Source: an uncultured Bacilli bacterium (lineage in GTDB: Bacteria; Bacillota_I; Bacilli_A; RF39; UBA660). Taken from it: 32,273 nucleotides of DNA. The notes beneath the pieces are model-generated. The model was given only the letters and a program-made list of their open reading frames with translations. It did not search any database and was not told the DNA's origin. Positions 2,897 through 31,096 of the stretch are shown in pieces. The stretch is taken from contig CALVYB010000009.1 in assembly GCA_944371955.1 (NCBI GenBank), forward strand, positions 1 through 32,273. The letters run 5' to 3'. The first letter of the stretch is position 1, and the number at the start of each line of letters is the position of its first letter. The translations under genes and the position numbers were made by a program.

Positions 2897-5482
2897 TTAT
2901 TTTTTTAAGATAAACAATTTTATAATTTCTGATACACCTAGCGGTACAAATGATAACCCAATAGTTATTAACCATTGTGTGCTATCTAATGGCGCAATTG
3001 AGAAAAATTGACTTAATGCTGGTACAAAAATTATTGTCATCAAAATCAACACAGACGCTAACATCGCCAAAAATAACATTTTGTTTTTAGGTTGTTCTTT
3101 TGAAAAGAAGGATATTGTGTTAGAATGTTGGTTCATTGCATGCACAATTTGTGATAAACACAATGTAATAAAAGTCATGGTTATTGCTGTTTCATAGTTT
3201 TTTTGTAAACCGATGAAATATGCTGTGAATGAAAGTAGAGTTAATAACATTCCATAATAAGCAATATTAAAAATCATTCCCTTTTCAAAAAGTGTTCCTT
3301 TTTTTGTCGGTGGATGTTTCATGGTGTTTTTATTAGCAGGATCTACACCTAATGCTAAAGCTGGTAATGTGTCAGTAATTAGATTTACAAATAAAATATG
3401 TACAGCTAGTATAGGTGTTTTTAAGTTAAAAACCATTGCTAGAAGAATAGTTAAAACTTCTGCTATATTTCCAGTTAATAAAAATTGGATTACTTTTTGA
3501 ATATTTCTATAAATTCTTCTTCCTTCTTTAATCGCCACTTCTATTGTTGAGAAATTGTCATCTAGTAGTAACATATCAGCAGCATCTTTTGCAACATCCG
3601 TTCCATTTTTTCCCATGGCGATACCAATATCGGCGGTATTTAAAGCTGGTGCATCATTTACCCCATCTCCAGTCATTCCTACAATTTCTTGTTGCTCTTG
3701 CAAAGCCTTTACAATATCTAATTTATCCTTTGGACTAACTCTAGAAAAGACACTAATTTTCGGTAATTTTTTATGAAGTTCTTCTCGAGTCATTTCATGG
3801 AACTCTTCCACATTGACCGCTAGATCTGAGTCACGATAAATCCCTAACTGTTTTGCTATTGCAACTGCGGTCTTTTTATGATCCCCTGTAATCATGATTA
3901 CTCTTACTCCTGCTTCATGACAACTTTTAATTGAGGCCATTACTTCTTTTCTTGGCGGATCAATCATGCCTGTGATGCCTAAAAATATTAAATCTTCTTC
4001 TACTTCTTTTTCTGTTAATTTTGCTATCTTATAAGCAAATCCTAAACTTCTTAATGCGTTGTCTGCAAGATAGTCACATTTTTTTGTAATTAGTTTTTTT
4101 TCTGTGTCTGTAATTTTTTTCTTCTCACCATTTATAAAGGCATAATTACATTTCTTTATTAATTCTTCTGGTGCTCCTTTAATATATGCCGTCTTTTTGT
4201 CTTGTTCATCTTTACATATTACAGCCATTAACTTTCGATCCGAATCGAACGGCTTTTCATATTCTTTTTTGTTTTTATTTATTATTTTTTCAACATCATA
4301 GTCATTATCTTCGGCAAACTTTAATAGAGCTCCTTCTGTGGGGTCTCCTTGAACTTCCCCATTGATAATACTTGAATTATTACAAAGGACAGCACAATAA
4401 GCTAATAAATCGGTAATGTTATTTTCTTTATTTTCTAGCAAATTGTCTGCAGTATAAAATTCGGTCACTGTCATTTTATTTTCTGTTAGGGTTCCTGTTT
4501 TATCTGTGCAAATCACAGTAGCACTGCCAAGGGTTTCTACCGCAGGGAGTTGTTTTACAAGAGCTCTTTTTTCTGCCATTCTCTGGACACCAATTGCCAT
4601 TACTACAGTTACTGTTGCCGGAAGCCCTTCTGGTATTACGGATATTGCAAGTGATACAGCTATCATTAATATGCTAATTAGATTTTGCCCATGAACTATT
4701 CCGATAATGAAAATTAAGATACTGATAATAATCCCTAAAATACTTAGGACTTTTCCTATTTTATTTAATTTTTGTTTTAATGGAGTTTCTAAATTATCTT
4801 CACTATCTAATAGTTTTGCTATTGTACCAATTTCGGTTGTCATACCGGTATTAGTAACTACTCCGATTCCTGTACCATTATTTATAATTGTAGAAGAAAA
4901 TCCCATGTTTTTTCTTTCACCCAATGGTTCTTCCTTTTCACTGATATAATTTTTATCTTTTTCTACTGGAACACTTTCACCAGTCAATGCCGACTCATCT
5001 ACTAATATATCGTGTTCTTCCAACCATCTAATATCAGCTGGTATAATATTTCCAGCTTCCAAGTAAACAATATCTCCTGGTACTAAATCTCTAGCTAATA
5101 TTTTTTCTTTTTTTCCATTTCTTAATACCAAAGTATGTGGAGCATTCATGTTTCTTAGTGCTTCTAAAGCATCACTAGCCTTTTTTTCTTGAATGACACT
5201 AATTATGATATTTATGGAAATAATAAATAAAATTACCCCTCCCTCTAAAGTTTCTCCTAGAACAAAAGATAATAATGAAGCTATTAAAAGAATAATAATC
5301 ATTTTATCCGTTAATTGTTCTATGATCATTTTTAAAATAGATTTTTTGGGTTTTTGCTTAAGCTCATTCAATCCATATTGTTTTTGCCTTGTTATTACTT
5401 CGTTCGTGTTTAATCCAGTTTGCTCATTAGTATTTAATTCTTTAATAATCTTTTTTATATCTTTTTGATAGTTTTCTAGCAT
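2897..5482 (-). CDS. P-type Ca2+-transporting ATPase (P2 type)
   Basis: This is a membrane pump that moves cations, most likely Ca2+ out of the cytosol, using ATP. The 861-residue length is normal for SERCA/PMCA-like bacterial pumps. Visible landmarks are an N-terminal cation ATPase domain, the actuator motif TGES at 167-170, the membrane motif PEGLP at 284-288 and the phosphorylation motif DKTGTLT with Asp327. Further on are the hinge motif TGDGVNDAPAL near 615-625 and a C-terminal block of membrane helices. The start ATG has GGAGAA upstream. A divergent plus-strand gene begins 168 bases away, and a TATAAT-like -10 sequence near 5579-5584 could serve this gene. Ion specificity (Ca2+, or Mn2+ as in some relatives) cannot be settled from sequence alone. 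Confidence 0.92.
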   Translation of the reverse strand: MLENYQKDIKKIIKELNTNEQTGLNTNEVITRQKQYGLNELKQKPKKSILKMIIEQLTDKMIIILLIASLLSFVLGETLEGGVILFIISINIIISVIQEKKASDALEALRNMNAPHTLVLRNGKKEKILARDLVPGDIVYLEAGNIIPADIRWLEEHDILVDESALTGESVPVEKDKNYISEKEEPLGERKNMGFSSTIINNGTGIGVVTNTGMTTEIGTIAKLLDSEDNLETPLKQKLNKIGKVLSILGIIISILIFIIGIVHGQNLISILMIAVSLAISVIPEGLPATVTVVMAIGVQRMAEKRALVKQLPAVETLGSATVICTDKTGTLTENKMTVTEFYTADNLLENKENNITDLLAYCAVLCNNSSIINGEVQGDPTEGALLKFAEDNDYDVEKIINKNKKEYEKPFDSDRKLMAVICKDEQDKKTAYIKGAPEELIKKCNYAFINGEKKKITDTEKKLITKKCDYLADNALRSLGFAYKIAKLTEKEVEEDLIFLGITGMIDPPRKEVMASIKSCHEAGVRVIMITGDHKKTAVAIAKQLGIYRDSDLAVNVEEFHEMTREELHKKLPKISVFSRVSPKDKLDIVKALQEQQEIVGMTGDGVNDAPALNTADIGIAMGKNGTDVAKDAADMLLLDDNFSTIEVAIKEGRRIYRNIQKVIQFLLTGNIAEVLTILLAMVFNLKTPILAVHILFVNLITDTLPALALGVDPANKNTMKHPPTKKGTLFEKGMIFNIAYYGMLLTLLSFTAYFIGLQKNYETAITMTFITLCLSQIVHAMNQHSNTISFFSKEQPKNKMLFLAMLASVLILMTIIFVPALSQFFSIAPLDSTQWLITIGLSFVPLGVSEIIKLFILKK

Positions 5483-8601: not shown

Positions 8602-10332
8602 TTAAATATCTGATTCCGCTGTGTATAAATTTTGATATGGTTCACAACTTTCTAATAATTCTTTATGTTTTCCACTACCAGCTAATTTCCCTTTTTCAAT
8701 TACATGAATTGTATCAGCATCCACAATTGTTGATAATCTATGAGCAACAATAATTACTGTATGATCTTTTACTAAGTCATCAATCGTCTTTTTAATATAT
8801 TCTTGGGACTCATTATCAAGTGCAGAGGTCGCTTCGTCAAACAAAATTATTTTTGTATTTAAAAGGAGTGTTCTTGCGATTGCTATACGTTGTTTTTGCC
8901 CTCCTGATAAGTTTATTCCACCTTCTCCAATTACAGTATCATATTTATTAGGTAAACTCATTATGTACTCATCAATATAGGCTCTTTTACAACATTCTCT
9001 TACTTCTTCTAATGTTACATTTTCTTTTACTAGTCTAAAGTTTTCTAATATAGTTAAGTTAAATAAGAATGGACTTTGTCTAATAATTGATAAGTTGTTT
9101 CTTAAAGATTCTTCTGTTAAATCTTTGATATCTATATTATCAATCATAATCTTTCCTTTTGTAGCATCAAAGTATCTTAATAGTAAGTTAAATATTGTAC
9201 TTTTTCCATTTCCACTACGTCCAACAATAGCAATTTTTTTGTTTGGTTCAATAGTTAAATTTAACCCTTTTAAAGTATAATCTTCTTTTTCAGTATATTT
9301 AAATTTTACATTTTCAAACTTAATTATTCCTTTTGTATTTTCTAATACTTTATCACCATATTTTTCATCTTGATATAATTCATTATTCAGTATTTCACCA
9401 ATTCTTTTTAGAGATACTGTTACTTTATTAAAACTTACTCCAAAGTCGCTAATACTTTCTACTACTTCATCTATTCTCCAGATGTAGGACTCTATCATTA
9501 AGAAAATACCTAAACTAATCGCTCTATCTAAATAAAATTTTCCTGTTGTAAAAAGTATTAGGAATTGAATAATAAAATAAGCTAAACTATTAAAAGCATA
9601 ATACCATCTTTCGTATTTTCTAACTTGGGCAGTATGAGTAAATAATTTATCAATTACTTTAGAAATATTATTTTCTATAATCTTAGAAATACCTAAAGAT
9701 TTTATTTCTCTTATTCCAGTCATATTTTCTGTTGATACTTTTACATAGGCATCGCTTTCCTTTTTAATTTTTTCTTGGCTCTTTTTAATTCTTGGAAAGA
9801 ATTTGATAGAGATAAAGCCCATGATTATCGCTAACAGCATTATTTCTGCAAATAAGATCCATGATATTTGAATTGCAATTATAATTACCACTATTACTAC
9901 AATAGCTTTACAAATTAATCTCACCATTTTAGAAAGCAATTCCATTACTCTATCTGGATCTGTATATAATCTATTTATGAACTCTCCAACCCCTATATCT
10001 TCAAATGCTATGGCTGGTAATTTATCCATTTTTCTATATAAATCTTTACTTACACTTTTTGTAAATTTTATTTCAAAGTATGTATATAGATAATCTCTTG
10101 GTATTTGTAAAAAAGTATAAAGCAATATGTAAATACCTTCATAAACTGTCAAATATAAAGCAAATTGGTTAAAGTCTTTTGATGTTAATGCTTCTACTGC
10201 AACTCCCCAAAAATAGACAGCGATTAGTGCTGGTAAATATGATAAAGCAACTAGCATTACGTATAGAAATAATTTAAATTTATCATCTTTGATGTAATTC
10301 CAAAATATTTTAAAATGTTTTATTTTTTCCAT
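8602..10332 (-). CDS. ABC exporter, fused permease and ATPase
   Basis: This is a half-size type I (MsbA/LmrA-like) exporter of 576 residues that would act as a dimer in the membrane. The first 300 or so residues form a six-helix transmembrane domain. The ATPase domain follows, with Walker A GRSGNGKS near 370, Q-loop near IIRQSPF, signature LSGGQKQRIAIART, Walker B IILFDEATSALD and the H-loop VAHRLSTI. There is no N-terminal C39 peptidase domain, so it would not trim a double-glycine leader itself. An unpartnered half transporter normally forms a homodimer. It follows a 33-residue peptide gene and a terminator, apparently on the same transcript, which makes that peptide a candidate cargo; this is inference. 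Confidence 0.9.
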   Translation of the reverse strand: MEKIKHFKIFWNYIKDDKFKLFLYVMLVALSYLPALIAVYFWGVAVEALTSKDFNQFALYLTVYEGIYILLYTFLQIPRDYLYTYFEIKFTKSVSKDLYRKMDKLPAIAFEDIGVGEFINRLYTDPDRVMELLSKMVRLICKAIVVIVVIIIAIQISWILFAEIMLLAIIMGFISIKFFPRIKKSQEKIKKESDAYVKVSTENMTGIREIKSLGISKIIENNISKVIDKLFTHTAQVRKYERWYYAFNSLAYFIIQFLILFTTGKFYLDRAISLGIFLMIESYIWRIDEVVESISDFGVSFNKVTVSLKRIGEILNNELYQDEKYGDKVLENTKGIIKFENVKFKYTEKEDYTLKGLNLTIEPNKKIAIVGRSGNGKSTIFNLLLRYFDATKGKIMIDNIDIKDLTEESLRNNLSIIRQSPFLFNLTILENFRLVKENVTLEEVRECCKRAYIDEYIMSLPNKYDTVIGEGGINLSGGQKQRIAIARTLLLNTKIILFDEATSALDNESQEYIKKTIDDLVKDHTVIIVAHRLSTIVDADTIHVIEKGKLAGSGKHKELLESCEPYQNLYTAESDI

Positions 10333-10358
10333 ATCTTTCTCCTTTCTTTTTCACACAA

Positions 10359-10382
10359 AAAAACTACTTTGCAGTAGTTTTT
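10359..10382 (-). terminator. Terminator between peptide gene and ABC exporter
   Basis: A 10-bp stem (AAAAACTACT / AGTAGTTTTT) with a 4-base loop is followed by seven T on the minus strand. It lies between the small peptide gene and the exporter, for which no separate promoter is evident. Partial read-through would give much peptide and little exporter. Confidence 0.75.
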
Positions 10383-10397
10383 CTTTAATACCAACTA

Positions 10398-10499
10398 TTA
10401 TCCAATATTAAAGTCGTGGAAAACATTAAATGCTACCACTTCTACTGCAGAATATTTTTTTCTTAATTGTATTTTTTTGTTTGTAAATAAATATCTCAT
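10398..10499 (-). CDS. Unrecognised 33-residue peptide upstream of ABC exporter
   Basis: A short open frame starts at an ATG preceded by a strong GAAAGGAGTGG site and stops at TAA. The product is basic in its first half (MRYLFTNKKIQLRKK) and has a hydrophobic, Cys-free second half beginning YSAVEVVAF and ending DFNIG. I do not recognise a family. Its reality rests on the consensus promoter, the ribosome site, and a terminator directly behind it, which together form a complete small transcription unit. It could be a peptide signal, a bacteriocin or modified-peptide precursor exported by the next gene, or a leader peptide controlling the exporter. No peptide-modifying enzyme is encoded nearby. 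Confidence 0.65.
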   Translation of the reverse strand: MRYLFTNKKIQLRKKYSAVEVVAFNVFHDFNIG

Positions 10500-10532
10500 A
10501 TTTTCCACTCCTTTCTTTGTTTGACTGGCTTC

Positions 10533-10561
10533 ATGATAACACTCTTTGCTTTTTATGTCAA
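10533..10561 (-). promoter_or_regulatory. Promoter of the peptide-ABC unit
   Basis: On the minus strand a perfect -35 TTGACA (10556-10561) and -10 TATCAT (10533-10538) are 17 bases apart, ending 33 bases before the peptide start codon. The -35 box overlaps the stop codon of the preceding phosphodiesterase gene. Confidence 0.8.
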
Positions 10562-17640: not shown

Positions 17641-17728
17641 ACTCCTTATCATGCAGGCTTTAGCACCTAATCTAATAGGTTGCTGTAGTATCAATGGGCC
17701 AGTCCCTCCACTACTCTTTATAAGGTTT
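17641..17728 (-). promoter_or_regulatory. SAM-I (S-box) riboswitch upstream of metK
   Basis: Read on the minus strand, the leader has the S-box landmarks in order: the P1 strand CCTTAT followed by AAGAG, then GGAGGGACTGGCCC, a CAGCAACC element, AGGTGCTAAAGCC and the closing ATAAGG that pairs with P1. SAM binding stabilises P1 and lets the downstream terminator form; without SAM the 5' arm (TGAAACCT) can pair with the terminator arm instead. A TATACT -10-like box near 17740 could start the transcript. Confidence 0.93.
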
Positions 17729-21433: not shown

Positions 21434-22464
21434 TTATCGTTGGTCACTAATAGTTGCTGAACTATTACTAGCTTGTAAGGCAGTAAGTGGATTATATGGT
21501 GCTCCGGTTGTAGTTCCTGCAAGTAAGGCAATATCTACGGCATTTTCTGGAATGCCCCATGAATTTCCTGAAAATAAGAATATTGCTTGGTCTACTACGT
21601 ATCCACGAGTGTTATATACAACATTATCCATAATTGTTCCAGTAGAATTAGGATTTAAGTATGCTGGTTGCCGCAGAGTATGAAAAATATTGTTTCGTAC
21701 TAATAAATTAGTAGAATTTACTTGAGTAACAAATCCCCTATTTACTACCCATGTTGAAGAGTCTCCTGCTTGGTTTGGACCATAAATTTGACAATTTAAA
21801 ATTTGATTCCCATCTCCCGCAACTTGTATAAATTCAACTGGATAGGGATTATCACTAGTCATAGTTAGACCATCAATGGTAACATTACCACCACTACATA
21901 AAAATGGTACTATGGGAGCTTGAAGTAAGATGATTGATCCTGCTCTTCCCTTTAAAGTTAAACCTGGTATATTTAAATTAATTTGTTCAGTAATCGGATA
22001 GGTTCCAGGTAAAATATTAATAATACTATTGGGTCTAGCAACTGCTAGTGCTTCTTCTATAGTTTGAAAAGGAGCAAATTCAGTCCCATCTCCACCAGGG
22101 GCTGCGGATGACTCCACATATAAATCATAGGGATTAGGCTGTATACTTCCTGTTGGACCTGTTGCGCCAGTCGGACCTGTAGGGCCGGTTATGCTAGGTC
22201 CAGTTGCTCCTGTAGGACCAGTCGGGCCTGTTGTTCCTGAAAGTCCTGATGCCCCAGTTGGTCCTGTGGGTCCAATTAAACCAGAACCCCCATTGGACCT
22301 GTTGCACCGGTAGGACCTGTAGGTCCGGTAATACTAACCCCTGGTATACCTGCTGGACCTGTAGGGCCTATTGAACCTGGAGGACCTGGTGCACCGGTTG
22401 GACCTATAAAAGAATATATTTTCATATAAGGATTATTATATTCATCATTTTTATTACAATACAT
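21434..22464 (-). pseudogene. Collagen-like and beta-helix spore surface protein, interrupted by a one-base frameshift
   Basis: From an ATG at 22464 (GGAGG 11 bases before) the product starts MYCNKNDEYN, then runs into Gly-X-Y triplets such as GPTGAPGPP. In the run of five C on the plus strand (22287-22291) the frame breaks and hits a stop at 22276. One added base restores perfect triplets ([12 protein letters not shown]) through about 22150. These lead into a right-handed beta-helix domain ([17 protein letters not shown], then NILPGTYPI) ending at 21434. The whole would be about 340 residues. Leaderless collagen-like proteins with globular C-domains are typical of exosporium filaments such as BclA. 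The shift may be phase variation, decay or a sequencing error; two separate open frames (22276-22464, 21434-22117) remain. Confidence 0.7.
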
Positions 22465-22495
22465 TGGGCATAAAACCTCCATTATATCTTTTATA

Positions 22496-22522
22496 TATTG
22501 TATGATATTAAAAATTATTCGT
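22496..22522 (-). promoter_or_regulatory. Sigma-K-like promoter of the collagen-like gene
   Basis: On the minus strand an AC at the -35 position (21-22 of 225xx) is followed after exactly 16 bases by CATACAATA, which fits the late mother-cell consensus AC-N16-CATAnnnTA. It lies 31 bases before the chosen start codon. This supports late sporulation expression and placement on the outer spore surface. Confidence 0.55.
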
Positions 22523-22618
22523 TTACAGAACAAGAAAAAATGAATTTCTTGTAATGGCTGTTATTTTTAATTATGAAATTATTCAATATACCCCTTAATC
22601 TTTTTATATTTTAATTTG

Positions 22619-22903
22619 TTATTCATTTTGCATTTCTAAGCTGCTAATTTTCTGTTCTACTTCTTTTTCCTTAATATCAATTATTTTTAAATTTTCTTTA
22701 AATTCTTGTATAGAATGCAACAGTATTTCTTTAAAACTGTCTTTATCAAAGTTTTCATCATCAATTTTTATTTCAATACTATTAAAATCAAAATTATCAT
22801 CTTGATTTATTATTACACTAACTAATTTTTTTAAATCCGGATTATTTGATTCTAATTCTATATCAATTTCATTTATTATCACGTGAAGTTTTTTCTCGTC
22901 CAT
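22619..22903 (-). CDS. Small acidic partner of the PHP-ATPase
   Basis: The 94-residue protein is acidic and soluble, with a beta-rich first half (IEIKIDDENF near 42-51) and a charged, probably coiled C-terminal helix (about 55-92). I do not recognise a family. Its start overlaps the 3' end of the PHP-ATPase gene by 35 bases, with an AAGGAG site inside that gene, so the two are translationally coupled and probably work together. It has no counterpart elsewhere in the window. Confidence 0.7.
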   Translation of the reverse strand: MDEKKLHVIINEIDIELESNNPDLKKLVSVIINQDDNFDFNSIEIKIDDENFDKDSFKEILLHSIQEFKENLKIIDIKEKEVEQKISSLEMQNE

Positions 22904-25214
22904 ACTTTTTTAGTCTCCTTTCTACTGCTTCTACCCCGCCATCTAGTATAATTGAAATCCTATTTAAAATATTTCCGTACTCTAAGGCTCCATAATCATA
23001 TATAAATTTATTATCTGATTTTTTATTTGCAATTATTACATTATCAGCATCAGCATTTATCACAATATTGGCATCATGTGTTACAACTATCACTTGTCTC
23101 TTTAATTTTAGTTTTCTAAACCACGTTGTTAATTTTGTATAAATAGTTTCATTATCAATATTATCTTCTGGTTGATCTATTAATAATGGAATCTTCGTAT
23201 CTTTAGAAACAATATATTCCATTAATATATTAGTTTGAGTTCCTGGTGACATTTTGCTAATATTTTCTAGAGTATCATCTGCTTTTCCATATAATATATT
23301 GCATTGATATTCCATTTTGTAATTATTTAATGATTTTAAATCATTAAGAAAATCATCAATTTTCTTGCTCGTTTTTAATTCTTCTTCTAAATGAAAAATA
23401 AAAATATTACACAACTCTTCCCAATTACATTTTTGAACTTTTGCCCCCAAATATTTTATACATTGTTGTCTAAAATAATTTAATGGATCATCATAAACTA
23501 TTTTTTTCTCAAATTTAAATTTACTACCATCTATACCTTCTTTTATGTCAAACAACTCTTCTTCTTTTTGGTATTCATTCTTCATCTGTATTATTGCATT
23601 AACTAAATTTACTCTCTCTTCATATTTATTACACTCATATTTTAAGTGTTTTATAAACAGCTCCTCTTGTTTGTTTTTTTCTTTTATTGAAATGTTTTTC
23701 TTTTCTAAATATAATATAAATTTTTTCTTAATAATATTTTCAAAATTTTGTTGTTCAATTTCAACATTATATTTACTCACTTCATTATTAATTACTTTTA
23801 ATAAATCAAACAACGCTTTATTTATTGACTTATTGTCATGTAATTCTTTAGGAATTAATTTAGATGTATCTTTCGAATATTTAATTGCTTCTTCTAAATT
23901 AAAATATATATTTTTTTTATCTTTTATTTCATTTTTTTTAAATTTTAAATTTACTCCTTTTTCATTTATAACTTTATATTTTCCTATAAAATTAGATATA
24001 TTATCATTTGGTTTTACTTCTTTATTGACGTTTAAACTTGCATTAAATTTTAATTTAATTGCTTGTCTTTTGTTTTCTAAGTTCAGTTCCCCTAATTCAT
24101 CAAATTCATCACTGAAATATGCTTCAATTGCTTGATTAGTATCCTTAGAATTGAATATTTTAGATACATATGATTGATCATAAAAGTCAATTTTCTTACT
24201 ATCAATTGCTATTTTTGTATTATCTAAATTCACTAAATTTATAGGGATAGTATCTAAAAATTTGATTCTGTCATCATTTAATCTTTCTTTTTCGCGAATG
24301 TCACTAACTATGTGTAAAGCCATATTATCTAATAACAAAGATTTGCCACTTCCTCTTCCACCAACTATTACATTTAATTGATCTGATAATTCAATTTTTT
24401 CTTCATTAACTTCTATATAACCAATTATATTACCACTATTATCTGTATCTAATTTTTTTGGATATTTTAATATTCTTCGGGCATCGGTACCAGCTAACTG
24501 AACTCCTTTAAAATTTGGCAATGATTTAAAATATTGAGGTGGATTAGATAAATACTCTCTTAACTTTTTTTCATCAGAGGAGTCTGAAAACGATATAATT
24601 GATATTAATTCTTCACTATCGAAGTTTTTTAAAAATTCAACTGCCTTAGCTATTTCTGAATACCCTCCTACTTCCCAAAAGCAAAAAAACTGATCCATAA
24701 ATTTATACATATTATCTTTTGTTACATCCTCATCATTCCAATCATAATTAATTGCTCTCTTACCTTGTTTAAAAGCGTGTGGACTAATTAAAAACTCAAC
24801 TTTTGTACTAACAAGAAATTGTAATAAGTCATTTATATTTATATTGTCTTTTCCTTCTAAAAATTCGTTTATTTTCTCAGAAAAAGTCTTTAATTCATTG
24901 ATGTTGATAATATTAAAATAAAATATTAAATGTTTTGAATCTTTTATTCCTTCAATATTAACATCCACTTCTATTCCAGGAATTATATTTATATTTGTTT
25001 TTCTTAAACAAAATTCTTTATAAACATCATATGCAATATAATTATGATCTGTAAATGAAATTAAAGATAACAACGGGTAATCAGAAAATATTTCTAACAG
25101 CTTGTCAACAAATTCTACTATACCCATTTTTTGAAATTCACCTGGTGATTTAGGACTTTTACAAGAATGTATATGTAAATCCCATATACTAGAATGATTA
25201 ATGAGTCTCTTCAT
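22869..25214 (-). CDS. PHP-domain and ABC/SMC-type ATPase fusion (TrlF-like)
   Basis: The 781-residue protein starts with a PHP phosphoesterase domain: DLHIHS at 12-17, FTDHN at 54-58, PGIEVDV at 79-85, SPH at 144-146 and a further acidic SFSDSSD near 208-214, all candidate metal ligands. The second part is a split ABC-type ATPase: Walker A GGRGSGKS at 285-292, a long charged and probably coiled insertion, then LLIDQPEDNIDNE with Walker B, and VVTHDANIVINADAD as the H-loop. This layout resembles proteins that pipelines label TrlF-family ATPases. A nuclease or nucleotide phosphoesterase gated by DNA-bound ATPase activity is plausible, as in several defence ATPases; the function is not established. 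The start has a strong GGAGGT site. Confidence 0.8.
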   Translation of the reverse strand: MKRLINHSSIWDLHIHSCKSPKSPGEFQKMGIVEFVDKLLEIFSDYPLLSLISFTDHNYIAYDVYKEFCLRKTNINIIPGIEVDVNIEGIKDSKHLIFYFNIININELKTFSEKINEFLEGKDNININDLLQFLVSTKVEFLISPHAFKQGKRAINYDWNDEDVTKDNMYKFMDQFFCFWEVGGYSEIAKAVEFLKNFDSEELISIISFSDSSDEKKLREYLSNPPQYFKSLPNFKGVQLAGTDARRILKYPKKLDTDNSGNIIGYIEVNEEKIELSDQLNVIVGGRGSGKSLLLDNMALHIVSDIREKERLNDDRIKFLDTIPINLVNLDNTKIAIDSKKIDFYDQSYVSKIFNSKDTNQAIEAYFSDEFDELGELNLENKRQAIKLKFNASLNVNKEVKPNDNISNFIGKYKVINEKGVNLKFKKNEIKDKKNIYFNLEEAIKYSKDTSKLIPKELHDNKSINKALFDLLKVINNEVSKYNVEIEQQNFENIIKKKFILYLEKKNISIKEKNKQEELFIKHLKYECNKYEERVNLVNAIIQMKNEYQKEEELFDIKEGIDGSKFKFEKKIVYDDPLNYFRQQCIKYLGAKVQKCNWEELCNIFIFHLEEELKTSKKIDDFLNDLKSLNNYKMEYQCNILYGKADDTLENISKMSPGTQTNILMEYIVSKDTKIPLLIDQPEDNIDNETIYTKLTTWFRKLKLKRQVIVVTHDANIVINADADNVIIANKKSDNKFIYDYGALEYGNILNRISIILDGGVEAVERRLKKYGREKTSRDNK

Positions 25215-30895: not shown

Positions 30896-30934
30896 AATTA
30901 TTTTCCTCCATGTTAAAAATATATGTGATGATAT

Positions 30935-31060
30935 ATATATTGTTGTAATGTTGATTTTACTTTTTGCTATATATCTAACGAATCACATCTCCGCAGTAGC
31001 ATCCGCCGAATCTTTCGATCACTACTGTCCTCGTCAACTGTTAAAGTCCAGGCGCTTAAA
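30935..31060 (-). ncRNA. glmS self-cleaving ribozyme/riboswitch
   Basis: Read on the minus strand, the leader has the glmS ribozyme core in order: AGCGCC at the cleavage site (cut expected between 31056 and 31055), AACAGTTGACGAGGACAG, ATCGAAAGATTCGGCGGATG, then the P3 region. The 5' half matches closely; the 3' support helices are less certain, so the boundary near 30935 is approximate. Glucosamine-6-phosphate acts as the cofactor for cleavage and lowers glmS expression. Confidence 0.93.
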
Positions 31061-31096
31061 TGAATTTGTCTCCTTCCTACTATCCATTCTATATTT

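Follow-up and report, generated by a model that had tools for sequence, protein, structure and literature searches.

A predicted ribosome-mediated transcription attenuator preceding an ABC exporter gene in uncultured Bacilli

A 33-codon open reading frame with expression signals of its own directly precedes an ABC exporter gene in a 32,273-nucleotide stretch of DNA (the window) from an uncultured Bacilli bacterium, raising the question of whether it codes for a peptide that the transporter exports or is part of a leader that controls the exporter. Comparison with related loci favors the second answer, and the feature is very probably a ribosome-mediated transcription attenuator.

Organization of the leader and its exporter

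The minus-strand order is promoter, Shine-Dalgarno sequence, 33-codon frame (the leader uORF), U-tract hairpin, second Shine-Dalgarno sequence, and exporter, with the following features, in which ATE denotes the antiterminator element and P1 a helix between the start region and the 3' part of the uORF.

10533..10561, minus strand: leader promoter, sigma-70-type TTGACA-17-TATCAT, from direct sequence and hexamers in relatives
10498..10508, minus strand: P1 5' arm GTGGAAAATAT, covering the end of the uORF Shine-Dalgarno sequence and the start codon
10398..10499, minus strand: leader uORF, 33 codons plus stop, with a strong Shine-Dalgarno sequence and no protein-level purifying selection
10442..10449, minus strand: ATE TGCAGTAG, inside the uORF and complementary to the terminator 5' arm
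10416..10426, minus strand: P1 3' arm ATGTTTTCCAC, within the 3' part of the uORF
10370..10377, minus strand: terminator 5' arm and loop CTACTGCA, pairing with the ATE or the terminator 3' arm
10357..10383, minus strand: intrinsic terminator hairpin and U tract, with 94.6% of cells paired in 44 distinct rows
8602..10332, minus strand: controlled gene, an ABCB-type half-transporter exporter of 576 aa with ABC_membrane and ABC_tran domains

The expression signals are mostly as an earlier note on this DNA had read them. The promoter hexamers, TTGACA (10561-10556) and TATCAT (10538-10533), lie 17 nt apart on the minus strand and match the consensus at 11 of 12 positions, with a TG preceding the second hexamer, and they are recognizable also in five relatives (L057, L092, L093, L095, and L096). 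The ribosome site is strong, with a Shine-Dalgarno duplex energy of -9.3 before the ATG at 10499, and the frame has its own stop; codons at 10499-10401 specify the product MRYLFTNKKIQLRKKYSAVEVVAFNVFHDFNIG and are followed by TAA at 10400-10398. The terminator, GAAAAACTACT-GCAA-AGTAGTTTTTTT (10383-10357, ∼-11 kcal/mol), does have a hairpin and a U tract, but calling it strong was an overstatement, as its stem has only two G-C pairs and falls under the generic threshold of the detection tool; it is better described as moderate.

The exporter is a stand-alone protein with no C39 peptidase domain, again in agreement with the initial description. It shares domain order and sequence similarity with stand-alone ABCB-type exporters (Sav1866, MsbA, and the halves of P-glycoprotein), with matches to Sav1866 (1.8e-79) and to the MsbA model (3.7e-98); it is below every curated NCBIfam cutoff and is predicted to be of the multidrug type. 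Orthologs were gathered with the exporter sequence, not with the 33-aa peptide, and the scan yielded 80 loci from uncultured Bacilli at 57 to 96% identity, many of them from gut or fecal metagenomes and including organisms named Candidatus Onthousia (class Bacilli), Caccenecus, and Ventrenecus. At ∼45 of these loci, the exporter is preceded by a leader built in the same way, with a uORF of 18 to 39 codons behind a strong Shine-Dalgarno sequence and then a U-tract hairpin. The genes upstream of the leader fall into many unrelated groups, and the leader is thus associated with the exporter rather than with a fixed neighborhood. Distant orthologs (∼60% identity and below) often have no recognizable leader and often lie directly behind another gene, suggesting that the exporter can function without it.

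Other parts of the window have features of their own, including a SAM riboswitch (17643-17726, minus strand) and a glmS ribozyme (30920-31067, minus strand), both well above the Rfam gathering score. A collagen-like ORF (22276-22533, minus strand) is followed by a beta-helix ORF (21434-22117, minus strand), and the two may be fragments of a single collagen-stalked surface protein, split by a frameshift or an assembly error. A 781-aa protein (22869-25214, minus strand) is related to the TrlF family AAA-like ATPases (9.9e-67, below the curated cutoff) and weakly to the anti-phage protein Ppl, and its gene, with a 94-aa ORF directly downstream, is a possible defense gene.

Evolution of the 33-codon frame

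The possibility first put forward was that the frame encodes a peptide secreted by the adjacent exporter, which might be a bacteriocin or a signal; the short frame, its strong expression signals, and the stand-alone exporter immediately downstream would suggest as much. The 33-aa peptide is, as claimed, without a known family, with no match in Pfam or NCBIfam; the frame has no double-glycine motif, which, together with the lack of a C39 domain in the exporter, speaks against such a role. Two findings had been named beforehand as refuting this reading, substitutions lacking a synonymous bias and loss of the frame in close relatives with the exporter. There is no synonymous bias: a comparison with the nearest ortholog, L057 (96% exporter identity), shows seven nonsynonymous and no synonymous differences in the frame (pN 0.087, pS 0), whereas the exporters of the same pair have a pS of 0.25 and a pN of 0.020. 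Calculated from these counts, evolution like that of the exporter predicts that about three-quarters of changes are synonymous, and none in seven then has a p value of ∼7e-5, but the same result is unremarkable for a neutral frame (p ∼0.23). Codons 1 to 9 of the uORF in a second group of relatives behave similarly, with a pS of 0.023 and a pN of 0.077, pooled from non-independent pairs, compared to 0.250 and 0.023 for the exporter.

Nor is the frame conserved in close relatives that keep the exporter. It is shifted in L012, L014, and L032, where the same DNA reads CSR or CSK in place of SAVE, and L011 has lost the stop, its frame running on to end within the terminator; such frameshifts and lost or displaced stops occur at 85 to 91% exporter identity. 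The uORFs, of 18 to 39 codons, are unrelated in sequence, and some exporter orthologs lack any leader frame. A search of 60 relatives with the peptide found only the window and a near twin, the weaker matches in L008 to L010 not being leaders as far as examined. Secretion of a peptide is therefore largely refuted already, and we consider it extremely unlikely. The earlier note had offered a leader peptide controlling translation of the exporter as its alternative, of which control by the leader stands; a covarying antiterminator within the frame competes for the terminator 5' arm, and the evidence thus favors transcription termination over translation as the step controlled.

Alternative pairings in the leader RNA

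The ATE is perfectly complementary to CTACTGCA in the terminator (5' arm and loop). Scanning by duplex energies, which take G-U pairs into account, finds that 38 of 51 loci have an ATE able to pair with their terminator 5' arm (p ≤ 0.05 relative to shuffles), and the pair covaries over ∼40 orthologous loci with differing terminators. Relatives with terminator CTACTGTAAA have the uORF element TTTACAGTAG, and the corresponding combinations are AGTCACTT with AGTGACT, GAGCCATTT with AAATGGCT, GTCATTTGT with ACAAATGGC, and GTCATTACC with GGTAATGA. Among 23 distinct terminator types, ATEs pair at -11.5 kcal/mol with their own terminators and at -7.5 kcal/mol with swapped ones (z = -7.1; none of 5,000 permutations). 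A 45-row alignment (44 distinct rows) contains 42 double-change cells in the ATE helix compared to 18 in shuffles, and the covariation score of 0.357 drops to at most 0.058 if the partners are slid by one column. P1 is paired in 82.5% of cells (44 distinct rows), with 67 double-change cells compared to 26 in shuffles and a z value of -8.3 for own versus swapped partners at the same 23 loci; L092, for example, has a start region GTGGAAAAACATG that faces CATGTTTTTTCCAC. The terminator itself has 48 double-change cells compared to 16, and the compensatory changes in each of the three helices exceed those of every shuffle. The ATE falls in all three uORF reading frames (18, 13, and 12), as expected if selection acts on the RNA. 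Comparison among the leaders shows the uORF start, the ATE pairing, P1, the terminator, and the covariation of the helices, along with a lack of selection on the peptide. The ATE and P1 share no sequence; they are thus only partly exclusive of each other, perhaps through kinetics or topology.

Two variant arrangements are of note. Four distant orthologs (L079, L081, L087, and L088; 58 to 59% identity) retain a helix resembling P1, in which the start region faces a uORF ending in CATTTTCTCACG, and their weaker A/T-only terminators (AACTATTA...TAATAGTT) were missed by the scan. In L016 (exporter 86% identical), the 250 bases before position 4001 keep the hairpin and the ATE, but the leader is degenerate and the uORF has no evident start, so that L016 may be a uORF knockout that arose naturally.

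The leader has three features of ribosome-mediated attenuators of the bmrB and vmlR type: a translatable uORF between promoter and terminator (45 leaders, 18 to 39 codons), an intrinsic terminator before the controlled gene, and a covarying antiterminator exclusive with that terminator. We propose that P1 acts as an anti-antiterminator. With no ribosome at the leader start, P1 would form between the Shine-Dalgarno sequence and start codon and the uORF 3' part, and the terminator would stop transcription; a freely moving ribosome would cover the ATE while the terminator is made, with the same outcome. A ribosome held in about the first 3 to 6 codons of the window leader would instead block P1, leaving the ATE to pair with the terminator 5' arm, which would prevent the terminator hairpin and allow transcription of the exporter. 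Codons 1 to 8 are a putative ribosome-stall zone. The cause of holding is most plausibly a translation-inhibiting drug, and stalling drugs may be the natural signal, with the exporter removing such compounds. Drug induction that depends on translation of the uORF defines this type of attenuator and is predicted for the window leader.

Folding with a model ribosome, an equilibrium calculation with a crude footprint that supports the switch logic but is no proof of it, suggests that early stalling would favor read-through. The window leader folds into P1 and the terminator (-31.1 kcal/mol) without a ribosome; a footprint at codons 3 to 5 removes P1 and gives the ATE-terminator antiterminator instead. 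Once the footprint reaches codon 7, the full transcript refolds with the terminator, but up to about codon 11 there is still a stage, preceding synthesis of the terminator 3' arm, at which the antiterminator can form. The window terminator probability falls from 0.95 to 0.00 on simulated stalling. A footprint covering the ATE gives a terminator probability of 0.98. When 45 leaders are folded with a footprint at codon 4, ATE pairing at the stage preceding synthesis of the terminator 3' arm is 0.83, compared to 0.46 without the footprint, and the terminator probability is 0.61, compared to 0.96. Shuffled-middle controls (n = 270) have no such fall in terminator probability, with none exceeding 0.3 compared to 44% of real leaders; in the other ∼56% of leaders, the fall in final terminator probability at equilibrium is only modest.

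Two other types of leader have related designs. An amino-acid-starvation attenuator, in which the uORF would stall at codons for an amino acid in short supply and the exporter would transport a metabolite related to it, shares its RNA logic with the leaders of amino acid operons, and Lys and Asn are indeed somewhat overrepresented in codons 2 to 10; however, this excess fits an A-rich open ribosome site and no codon run is common to 40 distinct leaders, making starvation a very unlikely signal. Structured leaders with a terminator and an antiterminator are also common among riboswitches, and a ligand-binding or protein-bound leader would make the uORF incidental. We regard this as highly improbable, as a uORF with a strong Shine-Dalgarno sequence is retained in 45 leaders although its codons drift, and nothing resembling an aptamer core is conserved among the leaders, which have only helices that exclude one another and drift in sequence. 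Rfam covariance models give no leader match above the gathering score, and a relaxed threshold adds only chance matches.

Relationship to known leaders

The broader proposal is that uncultured host-associated Bacilli have a family of attenuators, undescribed and fast-drifting, through which a lineage-wide exporter is induced by stalled ribosomes only. Being off both without a ribosome, through P1, and with a moving one, the switch would report stalling and not merely low translation, and it would reveal intrinsic drug-inducible efflux in bacteria never cultured. We consider the case for and against this proposal evenly balanced. A literature search, limited to open publications, found no account of such a leader in these organisms. 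A leader covariance model (R1) has a good match in the window's genome only at the exporter locus, all others having E values above 1, and across 58 family genomes it identifies one further exporter leader (L106) beyond those of the window and genome G013. Two other R1 matches (L107 and L108) are terminator-like chance matches with neither uORF nor exporter.

With ribosome-mediated attenuation, what looks like a peptide gene would become a regulatory switch that can be read, predicting which exporter in uncultured gut Bacilli answers translation inhibitors. The covarying ATE-terminator pairs supply direct compensatory mutants. The locus also illustrates a general trap, in that short frames before exporters resemble secreted peptides while selection acts on RNA pairing.

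The closest counterparts are in Bacillus subtilis, where this type of control has been established by experiment. Translation of the bmrB leader is needed for lincomycin-induced read-through into the multidrug ABC exporter genes bmrCD, and blocking it lowers read-through and abolishes lincomycin induction (PMC4191407). Like the window leader, bmrB is a short translated frame holding an RNA switch, with alternative stem-loops and an intrinsic terminator before a multidrug-type ABC exporter, but it has 53 to 54 codons, its terminator lies within the frame, and its target is a heterodimeric pair, whereas leaders of the window type have 18 to 39 codons, are unrelated in sequence, mostly have the terminator downstream of the frame, and precede a single half-transporter gene. 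In the vmlR leader, the uORF lies in an anti-antiterminator hairpin, and stalling there releases an antiterminator at the expense of an intrinsic terminator (PMC9226507), as proposed for the window leader. However, vmlR codes for an ABC-F ribosome protection protein, its uORF has only three codons (Met-Ile-Asn), and its Shine-Dalgarno sequence is outside the hairpin, whereas in the window leader the Shine-Dalgarno sequence and start codon are inside a P1 arm. The predicted control logic is thus a known one, that of bmrB and vmlR, in a new place; what differs is the organism, the sequence, the length of the uORF, and the inclusion of the Shine-Dalgarno sequence in P1.
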